Shown here: piece after piece, positions 32,412 to 41,017 of the stretch
Position numbering within the stretch: the first letter of the stretch is position 1
Layout of the letters: the number at the start of each line of letters is the position of its first letter
NCBI RefSeq assembly: GCF_900128525.1
Contig: NZ_FQTQ01000134.1
Coordinates: 1-64,000 of the forward strand
From: a methanotrophic endosymbiont of Bathymodiolus puteoserpentis (Logatchev)
GTDB taxonomy: Bacteria > Pseudomonadota > Gammaproteobacteria > Methylococcales > Methylomonadaceae
DNA length: 64,000 bases
Direction: 5' to 3'
Made by a program: the position numbers and the translations under genes
The notes under the pieces: generated by a model
What the model saw: only the letters and a program-made list of their open reading frames with translations
Database searches by the model: none
Told to the model about the DNA's origin: nothing

Positions 32412-34025
32412 ATGTCTGCTGTAACAGCTGAACATGAACATGATGAACATCATGATCACGGGCCTGAGAAAGGTCTTTTAAGATGGATAATTACCACCAA
32501 CCATAAAGATATTGGTACGCTTTATTTATTATTTGCGTTAGCGATGTTTTTTGTCGGTGGTGCAATGGCACTGGTTATTCGTGCCGAGTTATTTGAGCCA
32601 GGTATGCAGTTTGTTAGTCCGCAGTTTTTTAACTCGATGACGACAATGCATGCATTGGTAATGGTATTTGGTGCAGTAATGCCTGCATTTGTTGGTTTTG
32701 CTAATTGGCAAATTCCATTAATGATTGGTGCGCCTGATATGGCGTTACCTCGTATGAATAACATGAGTTTTTGGATGTTAGTTGGTGGTATATTGCTATT
32801 AGCAAGTACCCTGTTCATGGAGGGTGGCGCACCTGCTTCAGGTTGGACTCTGTATCCGCCTTTAGTATTGCAGACTGGGGCTGCGTTGCCTTTTGCAATT
32901 TTTGCTGTGCATATGTTAGGTATCTCATCGATTATGGGGGCGATTAATATCATCGCAACTATTTTTAATATGCGTGCACCAAAAATGACCTTGATGAAAA
33001 TGCCTTTGTTCGTTTGGACTTGGTTAATCACGGCATTCTTATTGATTGCGATTATGCCGGTTTTTGCAGGTGCAGTAACGATGCTATTAACGGATCGTTT
33101 CTTCGATACTAGCTTCTTTAATGCCGCAGGTGGTGGTGACCCTGTACTTTATCAGCATATTTTCTGGTTTTTTGGACATCCAGAAGTGTATGTCATGATT
33201 CTGCCAACGTTTGGTGTAGCTTCAACTATTATCCCCGTGTTTGCGCGTAAGCCTTTATTTGGTTACAGCTCTATGGTTTATGCGACAGCTGCAATTGCAT
33301 TCTTATCATTTATCGTTTGGGCGCACCATATGTTTACAGTGGGTATGCCTATTGCTGGTGAGTTGTACTTTATGTACGCCACTATGCTCATTGCGATTCC
33401 AACGGGAGTTAAGATTTTTAACTGGACAGCAACGATGTGGCAAGGGTCTATGACTTTTGAAACACCTATGTTGTTTTCAATTGCATTCGTGGTGTTATTC
33501 ACATTAGGCGGGTTTACTGGTTTAATGATGGCGTTGGCTCCGGTTGATTTCCAGTATCACGATACCTATTTTATTGTGGCGCATTTTCATTACACCTTAG
33601 TACCGGCTTCTATCTTTATTCTGATGGCAGGTGGTTATTTCTGGTTGCCTAAATGGACGGGGAATATGTATGATGAAAAATTAGCTAAATTCCATTTCTG
33701 GTTATCAGCTATTTCAGTTAATATTTTATTTTTTCCGCAGCATTTCTTAGGTTTAGCAGGTATGCCACGTCGTATCCCTGATTATGCAGTACAATTTGCT
33801 GATTGGAATATGGTGTCTAGTATTGGTGCCTTTATCTTTGGCTTTAGCCAGTTATTGTTTCTTTATATTGTGATTAAAACAATTAAAGGCGGCACTGGCG
33901 AGAAAGTATCTGATGAGGTTTGGGAAGATGCGCACAAGCATGGTTTAGAGTGGACTTTACCTTCACCCGTGCCATATCATACTTTTGCTACTCCACCAGA
34001 AAAAATTCCAACTGAACATTTCTAA
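32412..34025 (+). CDS. coxA: Cytochrome c oxidase subunit I (aa3 type)
   Basis: This is a 537-residue twelve-helix catalytic subunit. Ligand motifs are MHALVMVFG (heme a), FFGHPEVYVMILP (CuB His and its cross-linked Tyr), WAHHMFTVGM (CuB His pair) and VAHFHYTLVPAS (heme a3 and a). The N-terminus is unusually His/Glu/Asp-rich (EHEHDEHHDHG), which could bind metal. It lies 55 nt after coxB with its own AGG site. A hairpin follows the stop. Confidence 0.97.
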   Translation: MSAVTAEHEHDEHHDHGPEKGLLRWIITTNHKDIGTLYLLFALAMFFVGGAMALVIRAELFEPGMQFVSPQFFNSMTTMHALVMVFGAVMPAFVGFANWQIPLMIGAPDMALPRMNNMSFWMLVGGILLLASTLFMEGGAPASGWTLYPPLVLQTGAALPFAIFAVHMLGISSIMGAINIIATIFNMRAPKMTLMKMPLFVWTWLITAFLLIAIMPVFAGAVTMLLTDRFFDTSFFNAAGGGDPVLYQHIFWFFGHPEVYVMILPTFGVASTIIPVFARKPLFGYSSMVYATAAIAFLSFIVWAHHMFTVGMPIAGELYFMYATMLIAIPTGVKIFNWTATMWQGSMTFETPMLFSIAFVVLFTLGGFTGLMMALAPVDFQYHDTYFIVAHFHYTLVPASIFILMAGGYFWLPKWTGNMYDEKLAKFHFWLSAISVNILFFPQHFLGLAGMPRRIPDYAVQFADWNMVSSIGAFIFGFSQLLFLYIVIKTIKGGTGEKVSDEVWEDAHKHGLEWTLPSPVPYHTFATPPEKIPTEHF

Positions 34026-34081: not shown

Positions 34082-34177
34082 ATGACTACTAAAACAAAAA
34101 ATATTTTGACTGCAGTCGCATTGGCGGTTGTTGCAATTTCAATTTATATTTTTGCTGTAATAAGGGTTACCTCTTAG
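34082..34177 (+). CDS. 31-residue single-helix peptide of the oxidase operon
   Basis: The frame from ATG 34082 encodes a short basic N-terminus (MTTKTKNI), one membrane helix (LTAVALAVVAISIYIFAVI) and RVTS. Its TAG stop shares a base with the GTG start of ctaG, so translation is coupled. Tiny single-helix proteins in this position between ctaD/coxA and ctaG are annotated in other proteobacteria as small oxidase assembly proteins; that link is by position and size only. It is too short for most gene finders. Confidence 0.62.
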   Translation: MTTKTKNILTAVALAVVAISIYIFAVIRVTS

Positions 34178-34707
34178 TGAATGCAGATTTAGAACGGAAG
34201 AATAAAAAAACAGTTCGAGCCTTAGTTTTTCTAGTGCTTATGATGTTTTTATTTGCTGTTGCTTTAATACCTTTGTACGATATTTTGTGTGAAATAACAG
34301 GTATTAATGGTAAAACTAAGCAAGATTCTGCGGTTTTAAATTATACGATTGATACACAAAGAGAGATAATTGTGGAGTTTATTACTTCGCTGGGTGCCGG
34401 TACGAACTTGGCTTTTAAGGCTGATAAATACGAGCTTAAAGTGCATCCTGGTGAGGTGATTAGTATGGGGTTTACAGCGAGCAATAAAACCGATCAGCGT
34501 ATGACTGCAAAGGCAGTCCCGAGCGTTACTCCAGGGCCTTCGGTAAGCTACGTTAAAAATACTGAGTGTTTTTGTTTCGATACTCAGGTTTTTGAGGCGG
34601 GTGAAACTAAGCACTTAAAGGTGCAGATAGTGATTAATCCTGCCTTACCTGAGCGATATAAAAGGCTAACATTCGGACTTACTTTTTTGATACTACTAAC
34701 TAAATAG
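34177..34707 (+). CDS. ctaG: Cytochrome c oxidase assembly protein CtaG/Cox11
   Basis: This is a 176-residue protein with one N-terminal helix (ALVFLVLMMFLFAVALIPLYD) and a periplasmic copper-binding domain. The copper motif CFCF is in KNTECFCFDTQ, preceded by the immunoglobulin-like fold and followed by PALPERYKRLTFGLTF. It delivers copper to the CuB site of subunit I. The start is a GTG overlapping the small peptide gene, and coxC follows after 6 nt. Confidence 0.94.
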   Translation: MNADLERKNKKTVRALVFLVLMMFLFAVALIPLYDILCEITGINGKTKQDSAVLNYTIDTQREIIVEFITSLGAGTNLAFKADKYELKVHPGEVISMGFTASNKTDQRMTAKAVPSVTPGPSVSYVKNTECFCFDTQVFEAGETKHLKVQIVINPALPERYKRLTFGLTFLILLTK

Positions 34708-34713
34708 GGGATT

Positions 34714-35583
34714 ATGATGTCTACACAAGGCGCATATTACATTCCACATAAGGCAACATGGCCAATAGCTGCGACTATTGGTTTGATGACTTTATTGGCA
34801 GGTTTTGCAAACTACTTAAATGGCAATGCGGCAGGCTCTACTTTTATGCTGATCGGCTTGTCAATTTTTATTATTATGATTGGCGGTTGGTTCACTTTAC
34901 AGGCAACAGAAAGTGAAACTGGCATGTATAATAAAGGCGTAGGTATTTCCTATCGCATGGCAATGATGTGGTTTATTTTTTCTGAAATTATGTTTTTTGC
35001 CGTATTTTTCGGTACGCTTTGGTATACGCGTAATTTATCTGTAGACTGGTTAGCAAGTGTTGGTGACGGTCCAGGGCGTTCTTCTGGTATGTTATGGCCT
35101 TCTTTTGAGTCTGTATGGCCAACAAATGGGCCTGGAAATGTTGGTGGTGAGTATGAGCCTATGGGGGCATTTGGCTTGCCTTTATTGAATACTTTAATTC
35201 TATTAACCAGTGGTGTGACTTGTACTTGGGCGCATCATGGTCTAATTGAAAAAAATCGTAGTCAATTAATCAAAGGTTTGGCGGCAACGGTGATTTTGGG
35301 CTTTATTTTTGTTGCTTTTCAAGCAATCGAGTATCAAGAAGCTTATCATGAAATGGGTTTAACTTTAGGATCTGGTATCTATGGTTCAACTTTCTTTATG
35401 CTAACAGGTTTTCATGGTTTTCACGTTTGTGTCGGAGCGATTATTTTGACTGTGGTTTTATTCCGTAGTTCAAAGGGGCATTTTACACCTGAAAATCATT
35501 TTGCTTTCGAAGCCGCTGCTTGGTATTGGCATTTTGTTGATGTTGTCTGGTTGGGTTTATTTATTTTTGTCTATATGATGTAA
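34714..35583 (+). CDS. coxC: Cytochrome c oxidase subunit III
   Basis: The 289-residue seven-helix protein contains YRMAMMWFIFSEIMFFAVFFG, TWAHHGLIEKNR, TGFHGFHVCVGAI and AAAWYWHFVDVVWLGLF, all standard for subunit III. AGGGG lies ahead of the ATG. A strong terminator follows immediately, so coxB to coxC forms the structural operon. Confidence 0.96.
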   Translation: MMSTQGAYYIPHKATWPIAATIGLMTLLAGFANYLNGNAAGSTFMLIGLSIFIIMIGGWFTLQATESETGMYNKGVGISYRMAMMWFIFSEIMFFAVFFGTLWYTRNLSVDWLASVGDGPGRSSGMLWPSFESVWPTNGPGNVGGEYEPMGAFGLPLLNTLILLTSGVTCTWAHHGLIEKNRSQLIKGLAATVILGFIFVAFQAIEYQEAYHEMGLTLGSGIYGSTFFMLTGFHGFHVCVGAIILTVVLFRSSKGHFTPENHFAFEAAAWYWHFVDVVWLGLFIFVYMM

Positions 35584-36070: not shown

Positions 36071-36814
36071 ATGAAACTGAGTTTTTTAAACTATACCTGG
36101 AAAATTAACCTTATCCCGTTTATTGTTTTTATTGCTGTACTGGTTCTGTTATTACGCTTGGGTTTTTGGCAGTTGGATAGAGCGGATGTTAAGCGAGCGC
36201 ATATAGCTGCGCAACAAGAAAAAATGTTGCTCGCACCGGTAGCACTGACTGATTTATTGGTTACTAGCGATGGATGGCGGTATAGACAAGTACAATTACG
36301 CGGGCACTATGATGTAGCGCATCAATTTTTAGTCGATAATCAAATTATAGGTGGTAAAGTGGGAGGTTTTGTTTTGACCCCTTTTATGCTAACAGGGAAT
36401 AGTAAAATTGTTTTGGTTAATCGTGGTTGGGTAGCTATGAGTAAAAACAGGAAACAATTACCTAATATTGATTTTACCCCGCCTTCTGGTGAGTTAGTGG
36501 TGAACGGTATGCTCAATCACTTTCCTAGGGTAGGCCTAGTTTTGGCGGGAGCTGATGAGCCGAGTGATTCTTGGCCTTCGGTTGTGCAAATAATCAACGC
36601 TGCCAAAATCACCCAAAAGCTTAATCAGCCTATTTTTGATTTTCAGGTGCAATTATTGCCTGATCAGCCGAATGGTTATATAAGGGATTGGCAGACAAAC
36701 ACTCGTATGCCGCCGGAAAAACATATTGCTTATGCAGTGCAATGGTTTGCTTTGGCGCTTACATTAACATTATTAATACTTTGGATAAGTTGTAAAAAAT
36801 ATAAAGATGATTAA
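36071..36814 (+). CDS. SURF1 family oxidase assembly protein
   Basis: The 247-residue protein has two membrane helices at the ends (residues ~15-35 and ~220-240) around a periplasmic domain, the SURF1/Shy1 layout. Family motifs are LGFWQLDRADVK, WRYRQVQLRGHYD, VLVNRGWVAM and NTRMPPEKHIAYAVQWFALA. SURF1 helps insert heme a into subunit I. Its stop overlaps the next gene by 8 nt, placing it in an operon with the SCO-like gene and ctaA::ftsY. Confidence 0.92.
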   Translation: MKLSFLNYTWKINLIPFIVFIAVLVLLLRLGFWQLDRADVKRAHIAAQQEKMLLAPVALTDLLVTSDGWRYRQVQLRGHYDVAHQFLVDNQIIGGKVGGFVLTPFMLTGNSKIVLVNRGWVAMSKNRKQLPNIDFTPPSGELVVNGMLNHFPRVGLVLAGADEPSDSWPSVVQIINAAKITQKLNQPIFDFQVQLLPDQPNGYIRDWQTNTRMPPEKHIAYAVQWFALALTLTLLILWISCKKYKDD

Positions 36815-37403
36815 TCAACAAAGAAAAAATCAACGCACGATTATTATTTTAGCGTTAATGACCGCCATCCCTTTCTCAATTGCATGGTATTTAACAAAAG
36901 ATCCTAATTTTCAGCCTATGTCCACAAATAAAGGCGAGCTAATTGTTCCTGTGGTTACGACAGAAAGGAGTGACTTACTCGGAGTGGATGATTTTTCTGT
37001 GGAAAATATTAAAGAGCTTGCAGGGCATTGGGTTATTTTAAATATTATTCCAGATAAGGAATGTAATCAGGTTTGTATTGATGCAATTCATGCAACTAAG
37101 CAGTTACGCTTAATGCTTAATAAAGACTTGCCGCGTGTTAGGCGTGCTGTCATTCTGGTACAGGGCATTCAAGAAAAAAGCTTTCAGCCATGGTGGGATG
37201 CCGATGATCGCTTATTAAAGGTTAAACCTAGCCCTGCATTGCTGAAAGAAATTAAGCAAAAGGTAACGCCAGAGCTTACTAGTGGAATGTTAATATTAAT
37301 GGACCCATTAGGTAATTTGATGATGCAATATAAAGCAGGCTTTGATCCTTATGCTGTTAAAAGTGATTTGAAAAAATTACTTAGAATCTCTCAAATTGGG
37401 TAA
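36807..37403 (+). CDS. SCO-like thioredoxin-fold protein of the oxidase cluster
   Basis: The 198-residue protein has one N-terminal helix (IIILALMTAIPFSIAWYL) and a thioredoxin-like domain with GHWVILNIIPDKECNQVC, a C-x3-C motif as in SCO1/SenC copper chaperones. The later SGMLILMDPLGNLMMQY matches the strand that normally carries the SCO histidine, but no clear histidine is seen there. It probably serves redox or copper handling during CuA assembly. It overlaps surf1 and is 6 nt before ctaA::ftsY. Confidence 0.75.
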   Translation: MINQQRKNQRTIIILALMTAIPFSIAWYLTKDPNFQPMSTNKGELIVPVVTTERSDLLGVDDFSVENIKELAGHWVILNIIPDKECNQVCIDAIHATKQLRLMLNKDLPRVRRAVILVQGIQEKSFQPWWDADDRLLKVKPSPALLKEIKQKVTPELTSGMLILMDPLGNLMMQYKAGFDPYAVKSDLKKLLRISQIG

Positions 37404-37409
37404 GTAGGT

Positions 37410-39362
37410 ATGTTTAGAGTTTTAACTATTTTAGTCGGTTTTTTTATTTTGTTGCTTGCAGGTACGGGTGCATATCAGCATTTAGTTCCTGTTGAAGTTC
37501 TGACATGTAATGAGTTTTTAACTTGTTATACACAGGTAGTGAAAATATTTGGTCAAGAAAATATAGCAAATCATGAACTCATTGCTTTGATCCACTCAGT
37601 CAGTGCTTTTGCTATTGTTGTGCTGTTAGCCATGCTGACCTTGAGTAGCCTTTGGCTAAAAAATGCACGCTTAAAACTGTTTGTTTATACGCTAATTTTA
37701 GCTGGTTTAGTAGGTGTGCAAATCCCTTTAGGGATGCATGCGCATTGGTTGGGTACTCAGGCACTTAATCAGCTGGCTCACTATCTGTTGAATGCGTTTA
37801 CCTTGTATGTGCTTGTGCATATTTATTTGCACAGTAAAACAGGCTACGTTAAGCGTAATGATGGCACTAAATCGTGGCTTGTTTCTAGTGCTATTGTTGT
37901 TCTAGGTTTGCAGTTGTTATTGGGTGCTTGGCTCACAGCAAACCATGCGGGTTTAGTGTGTGGTGGGTTTCCGCAGTGTTTAAATTCATGGTGGCCACAA
38001 GCCGATTATATCAATGCGTTTAACTTTTTAGCGCCATTATCCTTTGATGCGAAAATTGCTGTGCATTGGCTGCACCGTATTTTTTCAATTATTGTTTTTA
38101 TTAGCCTAACGTGGGTGATGCTATCAGCTACTAGTAGTCGTATTAAATCAGTACGTTGGGCTGGTGTCACAATAAGTTTATTATTGTTGATTCAGTTTGC
38201 TGCGGGAATCGCGTTAGTTAAGTTATCTATGCCTGTGTGGATAGGCGTAGTACATAGTCTTACAGCTATGATTTTGATGTTACCTTTGTTACTTATTAGG
38301 TTTCATGCAAAATATAAGTTGCCAGGTGATATCCAAGTTACTTTACCAAGGGAAAATTCTGCTAGCTTAAAGGAAAGAGATACTCATGTTGTTGACGATA
38401 AAGTACAAATACCAACATCTGAGCTAGTTGAGCCAGAGTCTTTATATTTGCGTTTAAAGTCACAGCTTGGAAAAACGCGCACAGGTCTAGGTGCTGTACT
38501 ATCGGTAGTAAGCTTTGCGAATCGTAAGATTGATCAAGATTTGTTGGAAGAGATAGAGACCAGTTTATTAATGGCTGATGTGGGTATGGATGTAACCACG
38601 GACATTATTGCTAAGCTAGAAGAAAGTGTTGAAAAACACCAATTAGAAGATGTTAATGCTTTATCTGAACTTTTAAAACAGCAGTTATTGGAACTATTGG
38701 AGCCTGTAAGCCAGCCTTTGGTCATACCTGAGAAACAAGGTCCTTATGTGATTTTAGTTGTGGGTGTTAATGGTGCTGGTAAAACAACAACTATTGGCAA
38801 GCTAGCGCAAAGATTACAGCAACAAGGGTATAGTGTGATGTTGGCCGCTGGAGATACTTTTAGAGCAGCAGCCGTTGAACAGTTACAAGTTTGGGGAGAG
38901 CGCAACGAAATTCATGTTGTGGCACAGCATACAGGAGCGGATTCAGCGTCGGTTATTTTTGATGCAGTGCAGTCGGCACAAGCAAAAGGGATTGATGTGT
39001 TGATCGCTGATACAGCGGGCCGTTTGCATACGAAGTCAAATTTAATGGATGAGTTGAAAAAAATCAAACGTATTATGAGTAAACTAGATGATACTGCGCC
39101 TCATGAAGTCTTATTAGTTTTGGATGCGGGGACAGGGCAAAATGCACTGTCGCAGGCTGAACATTTTAATAAAGCGGTTGAGTTAACAGGGATTGCCCTC
39201 ACTAAACTAGATGGTACTGCGAAAGGAGGCATTATTTTCGCTTTGGCAAAAAAAGCGGGTGTGCCTATCCGTTTTCTGGGAGTAGGTGAAGGAATTAATG
39301 ATTTACAGGATTTTAATGCTCGAGATTTTATTGATGCTTTATTTAAGCAAGATAAAGATTAA
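37410..39362 (+). CDS. Fusion of heme A synthase (CtaA/COX15) with the SRP receptor GTPase FtsY
   Basis: One uninterrupted 650-codon frame. Residues 1-300 form an eight-helix CtaA domain: histidines H62, H124, H219 and H282 lie in helices 2, 4, 6 and 8, and loop cysteine pairs are C33/C39 and C184/C190 (GLVCGGFPQCLNSWWP). Residues ~301-343 are a polar linker. From ~344 a complete FtsY N-G domain follows: LYLRLKSQLGKTRTGLG, P-loop GVNGAGKTT at 452-460, DTFRAAAVEQL, DTAGR at 534-538, TKLDG at 598-602 and the closing FIDALF. CtaA has both termini in the cytoplasm, so the FtsY part would be on the correct side. No in-frame start with a good ribosome site exists in the linker. Upstream genes serve oxidase assembly and downstream ones are ftsE and ftsX, so both halves are in their normal contexts. 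The usual acidic FtsY A-domain is replaced by the membrane domain. Confidence 0.9.
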   Translation: MFRVLTILVGFFILLLAGTGAYQHLVPVEVLTCNEFLTCYTQVVKIFGQENIANHELIALIHSVSAFAIVVLLAMLTLSSLWLKNARLKLFVYTLILAGLVGVQIPLGMHAHWLGTQALNQLAHYLLNAFTLYVLVHIYLHSKTGYVKRNDGTKSWLVSSAIVVLGLQLLLGAWLTANHAGLVCGGFPQCLNSWWPQADYINAFNFLAPLSFDAKIAVHWLHRIFSIIVFISLTWVMLSATSSRIKSVRWAGVTISLLLLIQFAAGIALVKLSMPVWIGVVHSLTAMILMLPLLLIRFHAKYKLPGDIQVTLPRENSASLKERDTHVVDDKVQIPTSELVEPESLYLRLKSQLGKTRTGLGAVLSVVSFANRKIDQDLLEEIETSLLMADVGMDVTTDIIAKLEESVEKHQLEDVNALSELLKQQLLELLEPVSQPLVIPEKQGPYVILVVGVNGAGKTTTIGKLAQRLQQQGYSVMLAAGDTFRAAAVEQLQVWGERNEIHVVAQHTGADSASVIFDAVQSAQAKGIDVLIADTAGRLHTKSNLMDELKKIKRIMSKLDDTAPHEVLLVLDAGTGQNALSQAEHFNKAVELTGIALTKLDGTAKGGIIFALAKKAGVPIRFLGVGEGINDLQDFNARDFIDALFKQDKD

Positions 39363-39368
39363 TCTGCC

Positions 39369-40031
39369 ATGTTAAGCTTTGATCATGTTTTTAAGCGTTA
39401 CGCTGACGCAGGGGATACTTTAAGTGATCTTAGTTTTCATCTTGATAAAGGTGAAATGGCTTTTTTAACGGGGCACTCGGGCGCTGGGAAAAGTACTTTG
39501 CTTAAATTGGTGGCGATTATTGAACGCTGCACTCGCGGGCAGATATTGGTCGATGGGCAAAATATTTGTCGCATGCATGATAGGCAAGTTCCTTTTCTAC
39601 GACGTAAGTTAGGCTTGATTTTTCAAGACTATAAGTTGCTTTTTGATCGCACTGTTTTTGATAATATAGCTTTACCTTTAATCGTCGCGGGTGTTGGGCG
39701 GCATGAAGTGGCTAGGCGGGTTCGTGCCGCACTTGATAAGGTAGGTTTGTTGGGCAAAGAAAACAAGTATCCTTTGGCTTTATCGGGCGGTGAGCAACAG
39801 CGTATCGGTATTGCGCGTGCGGTTGTCAATAAGCCAGCGTTAATCTTGGCTGACGAGCCGACAGGTAATTTAGATCCGCAACTATCAGCAGAAATTATGC
39901 GTTTGTTTGAGCAGTTTAAACAAGTGGGTGTTACGGTATTAGTTGCCACGCATGATATTGAATTAGTGACAAAGTTAGATCATAGAGTTTTGCAGTTAGA
40001 TCATGGCACACTTATTAAACATCCTTTATGA
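39369..40031 (+). CDS. ftsE: Cell division ATP-binding protein FtsE
   Basis: The 220-residue ABC ATPase has Walker A GHSGAGKST, signature LSGGEQQRIGIARA and Walker B LILADEPTGNLD. FtsE with FtsX controls murein hydrolases at the septum. It lies 6 nt after the ctaA::ftsY stop and overlaps ftsX by 4 nt, so the three are in one transcript. Confidence 0.97.
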   Translation: MLSFDHVFKRYADAGDTLSDLSFHLDKGEMAFLTGHSGAGKSTLLKLVAIIERCTRGQILVDGQNICRMHDRQVPFLRRKLGLIFQDYKLLFDRTVFDNIALPLIVAGVGRHEVARRVRAALDKVGLLGKENKYPLALSGGEQQRIGIARAVVNKPALILADEPTGNLDPQLSAEIMRLFEQFKQVGVTVLVATHDIELVTKLDHRVLQLDHGTLIKHPL

Positions 40032-41017
40032 AGTCAGTTAGAAAAAGCCCTATAGAGACCCCACGGCAAGTTGGGCAGCATAAGCGTAAGTCCACAGGCT
40101 GGTTAAGTATTAATTTGCTGTTGCATAGAGAGGCATTAGGTACTAGTTTTCGTCGACTATTGTTAACTCCCTTTACTTCAGCTATGGCTATTATTGTTAT
40201 GGCTATTGCCTTGTCTTTGGCGGGTAGTTTTTATGTTTTAGTGAATAATGCTCAGCAATTAGTAGATAATTTACAGACAGGCAAGCAGTTTTCCTTGTTT
40301 TTACATGAATATATTTCTGATAAGCAAGCTGCAAAATTAGCACAGCGATTACAGGATTATGAAGGGGTGGCTAATGTTGTACTGATTTCTAAGCAGCAAG
40401 CCTTAGCAGAATTTCAGCAATATAGTGGCTTTGGTGCTGCACTGAATGCTCTAGAAAGCAATCCTTTGCCAGCGGTCATTCAGGTTTTTCCTACACAAGA
40501 GATAAGTGAAGCGTATCAACTAACGAAATTATTAGAGCAAGCAAAAAATGAACAAGAAGTTGATTTTGCCCAAATTGATATGGATTGGGTGGTACGTTTG
40601 CAGACAATGATGCAAATAGCTAACCAATTAGTTATGTTGATATCTGGATTATTAGCCGTTGCCGTGGTCTTTATCACTGGAAATACCATACGCTTAGAGT
40701 TACAAACACGCAGAGATGAGGTCGTAGTAGAAAAACTAGTAGGGGCAACTAATATATTTATATGTTTACCTTTTCTTTATAGTGGTTTTTGGTTTGGTTT
40801 TATAGCGGGTTGTTGTGCTTGGTGCATTATTAGCTTAATGCTATTTATGCTCAGTTCTCCCATTACTCATTTATCTATGCTGTACCAGAGCCAATTTCAA
40901 CTGCATTTTATGAATTTTACGGAATCAATGAGCTTAATTGTCGGTGCGTCAATGCTTGGAGTCTTGGGTGCACTAGCAATAGTAAGTCATCAAATTAGAT
41001 TATTAAAACCTGAATAG
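40028..41017 (+). CDS. ftsX: Cell division protein FtsX
   Basis: The 329-residue membrane protein has a cytosolic basic N-terminus, a first helix (FTSAMAIIVMAIALSLAGSFYVL), a large periplasmic loop (residues ~75-195) and three C-terminal helices ending near HQIRLLKPE. GNTIRLELQTRRDEVVVEKLVGA is the conserved cytosolic coupling segment for FtsE. It is the end of the ftsY-E-X group; rpoH does not follow. Confidence 0.94.
   Translation: MKSVRKSPIETPRQVGQHKRKSTGWLSINLLLHREALGTSFRRLLLTPFTSAMAIIVMAIALSLAGSFYVLVNNAQQLVDNLQTGKQFSLFLHEYISDKQAAKLAQRLQDYEGVANVVLISKQQALAEFQQYSGFGAALNALESNPLPAVIQVFPTQEISEAYQLTKLLEQAKNEQEVDFAQIDMDWVVRLQTMMQIANQLVMLISGLLAVAVVFITGNTIRLELQTRRDEVVVEKLVGATNIFICLPFLYSGFWFGFIAGCCAWCIISLMLFMLSSPITHLSMLYQSQFQLHFMNFTESMSLIVGASMLGVLGALAIVSHQIRLLKPE

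Follow-up and report, generated by a model that had tools for sequence, protein, structure and literature searches.

The window analysed here, a stretch of 64,000 nucleotides from a methanotrophic endosymbiont of Bathymodiolus puteoserpentis, carries a gene that joins heme A synthase (CtaA) in frame to the SRP receptor FtsY. Our comparison with related genomes established, at the level of sequence, the architecture of the fusion, its age and origin, its status as the sole copy in the window genome, and the selective loss and retention of sites in its CtaA part. We consider it likely that a CtaA-derived domain resembling a b-type cytochrome anchors the SRP receptor permanently, that a single inversion created the gene, and that the catalytic half of the domain decayed while the heme-b ligands were kept. 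The locus contains the following features.

32412..34025, + strand: coxA, cytochrome c oxidase subunit I (TIGR02891 above cut-off)
34177..34707, + strand: ctaG/cox11 (PF04442)
34714..35583, + strand: coxC, COX3 (PF00510)
36071..36814, + strand: surf1 (PF02104)
36807..37403, + strand: PA0111-like small gene, immediately 5' of the fusion (weak NCBIfam match; conserved position)
37410..39362, + strand: CtaA-FtsY fusion gene, 650 aa (ORF, Pfam, NCBIfam)
37410..37844, + strand: CtaA N-terminal half, residues 1-145, presumed former heme O/catalytic half (residue table, model)
37584-37586, + strand: A59, the E57 equivalent (residue alignment)
37596-37598, + strand: S63, the R61 equivalent (residue alignment)
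37845..38324, + strand: CtaA C-terminal half, residues 146-305, putative heme-b half (residue table, model)
37959..37979, + strand: Cys pair 2, C184 and C190 (48/49 fusions)
38073..38075, + strand: H222, equivalent to the B. subtilis heme-b ligand H216 (49/49 fusions)
38253..38255, + strand: H282, equivalent to the B. subtilis heme-b ligand H278 (49/49 fusions)
38325..38441, + strand: linker, residues 306-344 (pLDDT below 50 over 308-343)
38442..39359, + strand: FtsY amphipathic start and NG GTPase, residues 345-650 (Pfam, NCBIfam, model)
39369..40031, + strand: ftsE (ABC_tran match; named by position)
40028..41017, + strand: ftsX (FtsX_ECD and FtsX, Pfam)

The fusion gene (37410-39362, +) starts with ATG and runs for 650 codons with zero internal stops. 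Pfam assigned COX15-CtaA to residues 61-291 (89 bits against a gathering score of 29.9), SRP54_N to residues 370-426 and SRP54 to residues 445-645 (258 bits), and NCBIfam assigned TIGR00064 (FtsY) with 367.5 bits against a cut-off of 260.7. The in-frame fusion proposed in the initial annotation is thus borne out as a single 650-residue frame with both domains. Among 52 aligned fusions, residues G452, N454, G455, G457-T460, D534-R538 and T598-D601 of the GTPase core are invariant; we take these to be the P-loop, DTAGR and TKLD motifs.

The gene order in the window is coxA, ctaG, coxC, a DUF2909 gene on the opposite strand, surf1, the PA0111-like gene, ctaA::ftsY, ftsE and ftsX. These flanking genes confirm the earlier suggestion that each half lies beside its native neighbours, including surf1 upstream and ftsE and ftsX downstream. 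The gene at 36807-37403, which had been called SCO-like, has no Pfam match, and its NCBIfam match to the PA0111 redox-active disulfide family is weak and below the cut-off (45 versus 230 bits). The position of this gene before ctaA or the fusion is kept across the examined fused genomes and those of families f7 and f8. The window genome (3.23 Mb in 208 contigs, given as 99.99% complete, with the window on contig C134) contains no second FtsY, normal or otherwise: its other two SRP54-type matches are Ffh and an FlhF fragment. The latter (G000:C169:5179-5655, L005; 187 aa) lies near a contig end and is either cut off or decayed.

As far as the sampled genomes reveal, the fusion is an old, order-wide trait carried by most members. 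Of 61 genomes, comprising the window genome and 60 relatives, 49 carry the full-length fusion, 7, all from families f7 and f8, have ftsY and ctaA as unlinked frames, and 5 are partial or unmatched; the piece in G012 is a fused frame cut by a contig end. A search of 311 genomes of the order found a match in 300 at E 1e-60, and every alignment among the matches listed begins no later than query residue 91 and extends through the last residues of FtsY. When 27 odd genomes were searched singly, 16 carried this fusion as a single open frame of 558-684 aa, and the remainder were partial, missing or broken, with G605 and G467 looking frameshifted. Among the best 80 loci in named genomes (more exist), 77 are fused in one frame; of the other three, L174 and L183 are truncated where their contigs stop and L199 has an in-frame TGA. 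Named carriers include Methylobacter, Methylomonas, Methylomicrobium, Methyloglobulus, Crenothrix, Methyloprofundus and methanotrophic Bathymodiolus gill symbionts. Three of the 77 named fusions are incomplete, and of the 74 complete ones, 51 entered alignment A3 and 50 alignment A4.

Several single loci deserve separate mention. The L199 copy (L199:4431-6419, a MAG) has its single in-frame TGA in the last membrane helix, and the FtsY part stays open. A stand-alone CtaA with its own stop was found in G454 (f4, 89% complete; L254:4397-5482 on contig C4); no FtsY or Ffh match was found in G454, and the gene could be an extra CtaA copy or the genome could have missing contigs. A MAG named Methyloversatilis universalis (L222) carries a fusion with the four catalytic residues intact and may be misnamed or mis-binned. 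The fusion in a record labelled “Bathymodiolus brooksi thiotrophic gill symbiont” (L215) resembles that of the methanotrophic symbiont L216, possibly through cross-contamination.

In class and phylum samples from outside the order, no fusion was recognized among the matches listed and at the thresholds applied. In a class sample of 369 genomes, full-length matches among those listed came only from the order members G000, G027 and G039, and in a phylum sample of 299 genomes only G000 passed E 1e-135; both searches could miss a fusion in which the CtaA part has decayed strongly. Seven long FtsY frames (514-944 aa) from outside the order were checked as candidates and rejected, as all were without CtaA. 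A tblastn search against plasmids gave no place covering 80% of the query, and the five matches listed correspond to the FtsY part.

The genomes with separate genes point to the origin of the fusion. In G053 of family f7, the two gene groups converge (coxA>coxC>surf1>scoL>ctaA>ctaB> <rpoH<ftsX<ftsE<ftsY M16>M16>rsmD>coaD>), with an aspartyl protease gene between ctaB and rpoH. The same convergent arrangement of both groups was found in G048, G056 and G059, with extra genes between them in G056, and in G043 of family f8, with further genes between the groups; in G042 the ctaA and ftsY groups lie on two contigs. All five f6 genomes in the set (G041, G047, G052, G055 and G058) have the order ...ctaA::ftsY>ftsE>ftsX>rpoH> <ctaB M16>M16>rsmD>coaD>, as expected from a single inversion with one breakpoint between ctaA and ctaB and the other immediately 5' of ftsY. 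The names rpoH, ctaB, rsmD and coaD rest on NCBIfam matches above the cut-offs in G053 and G058.

The initial annotation attributed the fusion to loss of the ctaA stop and of the genes that usually follow. This is contradicted by the five f6 genomes, in which ctaB persists, inverted, after rpoH, and loss of ctaB at the fusion was rejected for the same reason. The gene rpoH still lies 3' of ftsX in four f4 genomes (G039, G046, G051 and G054) and in the f1 genomes G027 and G032, and the inversion footprint is broken up in the fused families other than f6. No inverted ctaB next to rpoH was seen in the other 15 of 20 downstream stretches (7-20 kb each), so this footprint is known only from f6. In the window genome, the UbiA-type gene located 27 kb past ftsX is ubiA and not ctaB; a second UbiA-type match lies on contig C94.

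The phylogeny agrees with a single event. An FtsY tree was built from 67 rows, including 12 from the outgroup and one of the two f8 genomes, and was rooted at the midpoint. The 49 fused proteins form a single clade in it (94/93), the f8 row is their sister, and f7 falls with the outgroup side (99/94), indicating that the fusion most likely arose once, from separate genes. Gene order and tree, taken together as genomic evidence, place the inversion that put ftsY in frame behind ctaA on the lineage of f1-f6, after its split from f8.

The predicted structure is consistent with two complete domains joined by a flexible linker. The full-length model has a mean pLDDT of 81.5, with residues 308-343 below 50. 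The first 305 residues were modelled as eight membrane-length helices in two four-helix halves, and together with the domain matches this upholds the eight-helix CtaA and full NG GTPase described earlier. Modelled alone, the CtaA part reached pLDDT 92.9 and pTM 0.88. Its best match was B. subtilis heme A synthase 6a2j (Foldseek E 1.6e-6, TM 0.72; Z 24.7, 275 residues aligned, rmsd 3.5), followed by the Aquifex enzyme 8aw5 (Z 18.9); a phmmer search of the PDB with the CtaA part alone found no chain. The NG part of the model matches E. coli FtsY 6cqp (TM 0.92 by target, 63% identical in the fold match). Lysine and arginine together number 11 in the presumed cytoplasmic loops and 2 in the outer ones; therefore, the NG domain should face the cytoplasm, and the topology suggested in the initial annotation is compatible with this charge distribution.

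The CtaA active site has had an uneven fate. Residues were mapped to B. subtilis CtaA via a stand-alone f7 protein, and the residue table left out G002, G003, G012, G016 and G021 (unmatched or partial) and the seven separate-gene genomes. Following the numbering and roles of the CtaA literature, we take E57 of B. subtilis CtaA to be catalytic and H216 and H278 to be the heme-b ligands. PMC8239418 gives some of these numbers and roles. All sites are kept in seven of seven stand-alone operon CtaAs. Among the 49 fusions, E57 is kept in 9, R61 in 23, H123 in 35 and H60 in 36, and the two Cys of pair 1 in 43 and 42; R217 and each Cys of pair 2 are kept in 48, and H216 and H278 (H222 and H282 in the window protein) in all 49. 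Counted on the FtsY tree, from Fitch changes to losses without regain, E57 was lost 10-12 times, H60 9, R61 9-11 and H123 10 times, and H216 and H278 were lost zero times.

In the window protein, the catalytic E57 is replaced by A59 and R61 by S63, while H62, H124, H222, H282, C33/C39 (Cys pair 1) and C184/C190 (pair 2) are retained. Of the four histidines named in the initial annotation, three are matched as stated: H62 aligns to B. subtilis H60, H124 to H123 and H282 to H278; the fourth, H219, is a neighbouring residue beside the heme-b ligand H222, which is the true H216 equivalent, and is present in 26 of the 49 fusions. E57 survives in 29 of the 77 named fusions, and E57, H60, R61 and H123 are all intact in 25; every catalytic site is also intact in the fusion of Methylomonas sp. 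LW13 (L211). H278 is present in 77 of 77; Cys pair 2, H216 and R217 reach the same count, but with a bias, because these residues lie in the scan patterns.

Sequence conservation is reversed between the halves of the domain. Stand-alone CtaAs are better conserved in the N-half (mean pairwise identity of N-half/C-half 72.1/63.1 in the seven operon CtaAs and 76.3/65.6 in 15 second CtaAs described below), whereas the fusions are better conserved in the C-half (25.8/38.3 in all 49; 40.6/62.0 in the 14 fusions of the window's genus). The reversal also appears in a decayed set of named fusions (52.5/68.4), and no clear reversal is seen in fusions with intact motifs (52.7/48.2, 79.9/84.6 and 61.2/62.7). 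Between the window protein and those of three close relatives (G013, G011 and G007), dN/dS was 0.18-0.31 for the N-half, 0.08-0.12 for the C-half, 0.34-0.54 for the linker and 0.02-0.03 for FtsY. The N-half values are well below 1, so the N-half is constrained too. By these measures, the fused CtaA part is no longer conserved as an enzyme, and its heme-b half is kept.

From these results, we propose the following mechanism. As the sequences show, the inversion placed ftsY in frame behind ctaA, and the fused gene became the only ftsY. The catalytic (heme O) half then lost key residues many times independently, with the heme-b ligands remaining unchanged in the 49 genomes compared. The NG domain would act as an SRP receptor of the ordinary kind, kept at the membrane by the eight helices, with the flexible, mostly acidic linker standing at the usual place of the A domain. 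The C-terminal four-helix bundle would still bind bis-histidine heme b, which would at least keep the anchor folded, and the window protein would no longer make heme A.

The retained ligands could have a further role. The bis-histidine heme-b bundle and its Cys pair might sense heme or redox state, with the stability or activity of the sole FtsY being adjusted accordingly. The direct tethering of the NG domain to this bundle is consistent with such gating, as are the ligands and Cys pair 2, which are invariant or nearly so (48/49) in a fast-changing domain. However, the long disordered linker and a structural role of the heme explain the same data, and we regard gating as a tentative and rather unlikely possibility. 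If it occurs, the insertion of membrane proteins, such as those of methane monooxygenase membranes and oxidases, would track heme or oxygen status.

A doubtful alternative is that any helix bundle would serve as the anchor, with no heme bound and the conserved residues simply holding the fold. The decay of the catalytic half is in keeping with this, and so is the fusion of G024 (L071:2729-4552), a candidate pure anchor in which both Cys pairs and R217 are lost, Pfam misses the CtaA part, and FtsY remains attached. The loss of Cys pair 2 and R217 in G024 indicates that the heme-b half can decay too. Nevertheless, the heme-b ligands are present in 49 of 49 fusions with no loss on the tree, against 9-10 losses for the other two His residues. 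The initial annotation had offered simple anchoring as one of its readings; this comes closer to the data than its other reading but omits the invariant heme-b half.

The other reading was of a coupling to co-translational insertion. In its fuller form, the CtaA part would remain an active heme A synthase, and the fusion would link insertion with the supply of heme A and the assembly of the oxidase; a second CtaA has to be weighed against this. In the window genome, a stand-alone CtaA of 329 aa is encoded at L001:1471-2457 (G000:C59), outside the cox operon and among GCV_T, HDOD, AMP-binding and M48 genes. Of the 49 fused genomes, 47 contain a second CtaA match away from the fusion, which in G013 and G017 is split or partial; G040 (94% complete) and G050 (85%) gave no such match. 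The seven separate-gene genomes have one CtaA each. All 15 second CtaAs examined keep E57, R61, H123, H216, R217, H278 and Cys pair 1, lack Cys pair 2, and have N at H60, and their dN/dS was 0.04-0.07 in four pairs, some with saturated dS. These marks match type 1.3 CtaA, to which Table 1 of PMC8239418 assigns Cys pair 1 only and N60. With N in place of H60, the second CtaA, too, is a putative heme A synthase. The window organism probably obtains its heme A from this separate CtaA.

For the window organism, coupling to heme A synthesis conflicts with the loss of both E57 and R61 (A59 and S63), and for the fusions at large with the loss of E57 in 40 of 49 and the second CtaA in 47 of 49. The position of the fused gene within the cox operon speaks for an active synthase, as do the 25 of 77 named loci with four intact catalytic sites, where coupling may apply; on this count the CtaA part may be active in some Methylobacter and Methylomonas. 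G040, the sole genome at least 90% complete in which no second CtaA was seen, has an intact fused CtaA and also speaks for activity. As a general account of the fusion, we judge continued synthase activity improbable. The pattern fits the idea that the second CtaA freed the fused CtaA from enzyme duty, a contrast that rests on one genome, G040.

A further, very improbable alternative is that FtsY arises as a product of its own, through internal initiation or cleavage in the linker, which would make the fusion merely formal. The linker is fast-evolving and disordered, and an in-frame ATG falls within its final 45 residues in 30 of 123 fusions; however, the window linker has none, and any start with a Shine-Dalgarno-like 4-mer occurs in only 13 of the 123, across which no conserved internal start for a soluble FtsY was found. 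These last 45 residues before the NG domain contain on average 8.4 acidic and 2.9 basic residues. An assembly or sequencing artefact has a negligible probability and was rejected: although the window genome is in 208 contigs and the relatives L199, G605 and G467 have broken copies, the same frame recurs in the assemblies of 49 of 61 genomes and in 77 of 80 named loci. The refuting outcomes that the initial annotation named were thus not encountered, given these assemblies and the lack of a second FtsY.

The fused FtsY can be compared with known forms of its parts. In ordinary FtsY, an A domain precedes the NG domain. The fusion shares the complete NG domain of FtsY (TIGR00064) and the downstream ftsE-ftsX, but an eight-helix domain derived from heme A synthase and a linker stand at the usual place of the A domain. 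PMC2780400 describes a true transmembrane helix in some Gram-positive and archaeal FtsYs, the function in vivo of membrane-tethered FtsY derivatives in E. coli, and a debate on the need for a soluble phase of FtsY. An engineered FtsY fusion, a laboratory construct of 1997 cited in PMC2780400, follows the same principle; in contrast, the fusion reported here is natural and ancient, and its anchor has heme ligands.

On the CtaA side, the window protein shares the eight helices, both Cys pairs, the four His ligands and the 6a2j fold with CtaA/Cox15 of type 1.1, which Table 1 of PMC8239418 defines by both extracytoplasmic Cys pairs. It differs in lacking Glu57 and Arg61 and in its fusion to FtsY. 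The second CtaA (type 1.3-like, H60N) is homologous to the fused CtaA but unfused, and keeps E57 in 15 of 15. Fusions of CtaA to CtaB occur in some bacteria, according to PMC8239418 and PMC9145763; these join CtaA to heme O synthase, an enzyme of its own pathway, whereas here it is joined to the SRP receptor. Membrane-helix FtsYs, engineered FtsY fusions and fusions of CtaA to CtaB are thus already known. Among the titles and abstract openings listed from the open-licence literature, there was no CtaA-FtsY fusion, and within that literature a natural FtsY on an eight-helix anchor, apparently a former heme A synthase, has not been seen.

This study provides insights into how a core component of protein targeting can be rearranged. 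The gene orders before and after the inversion both survive in different families, so that the birth of the fusion can be read directly. The catalytic Glu has been lost approximately 10 times in parallel and the heme-b ligands never, which makes the order a natural test of what such an anchor needs. With its ligands retained, the anchor might also allow heme to control how membrane proteins are inserted. On the debated need for a soluble FtsY, nature seems to have set up a trial of its own: a major methanotroph order has a receptor that is predicted to be permanently integral to the membrane.
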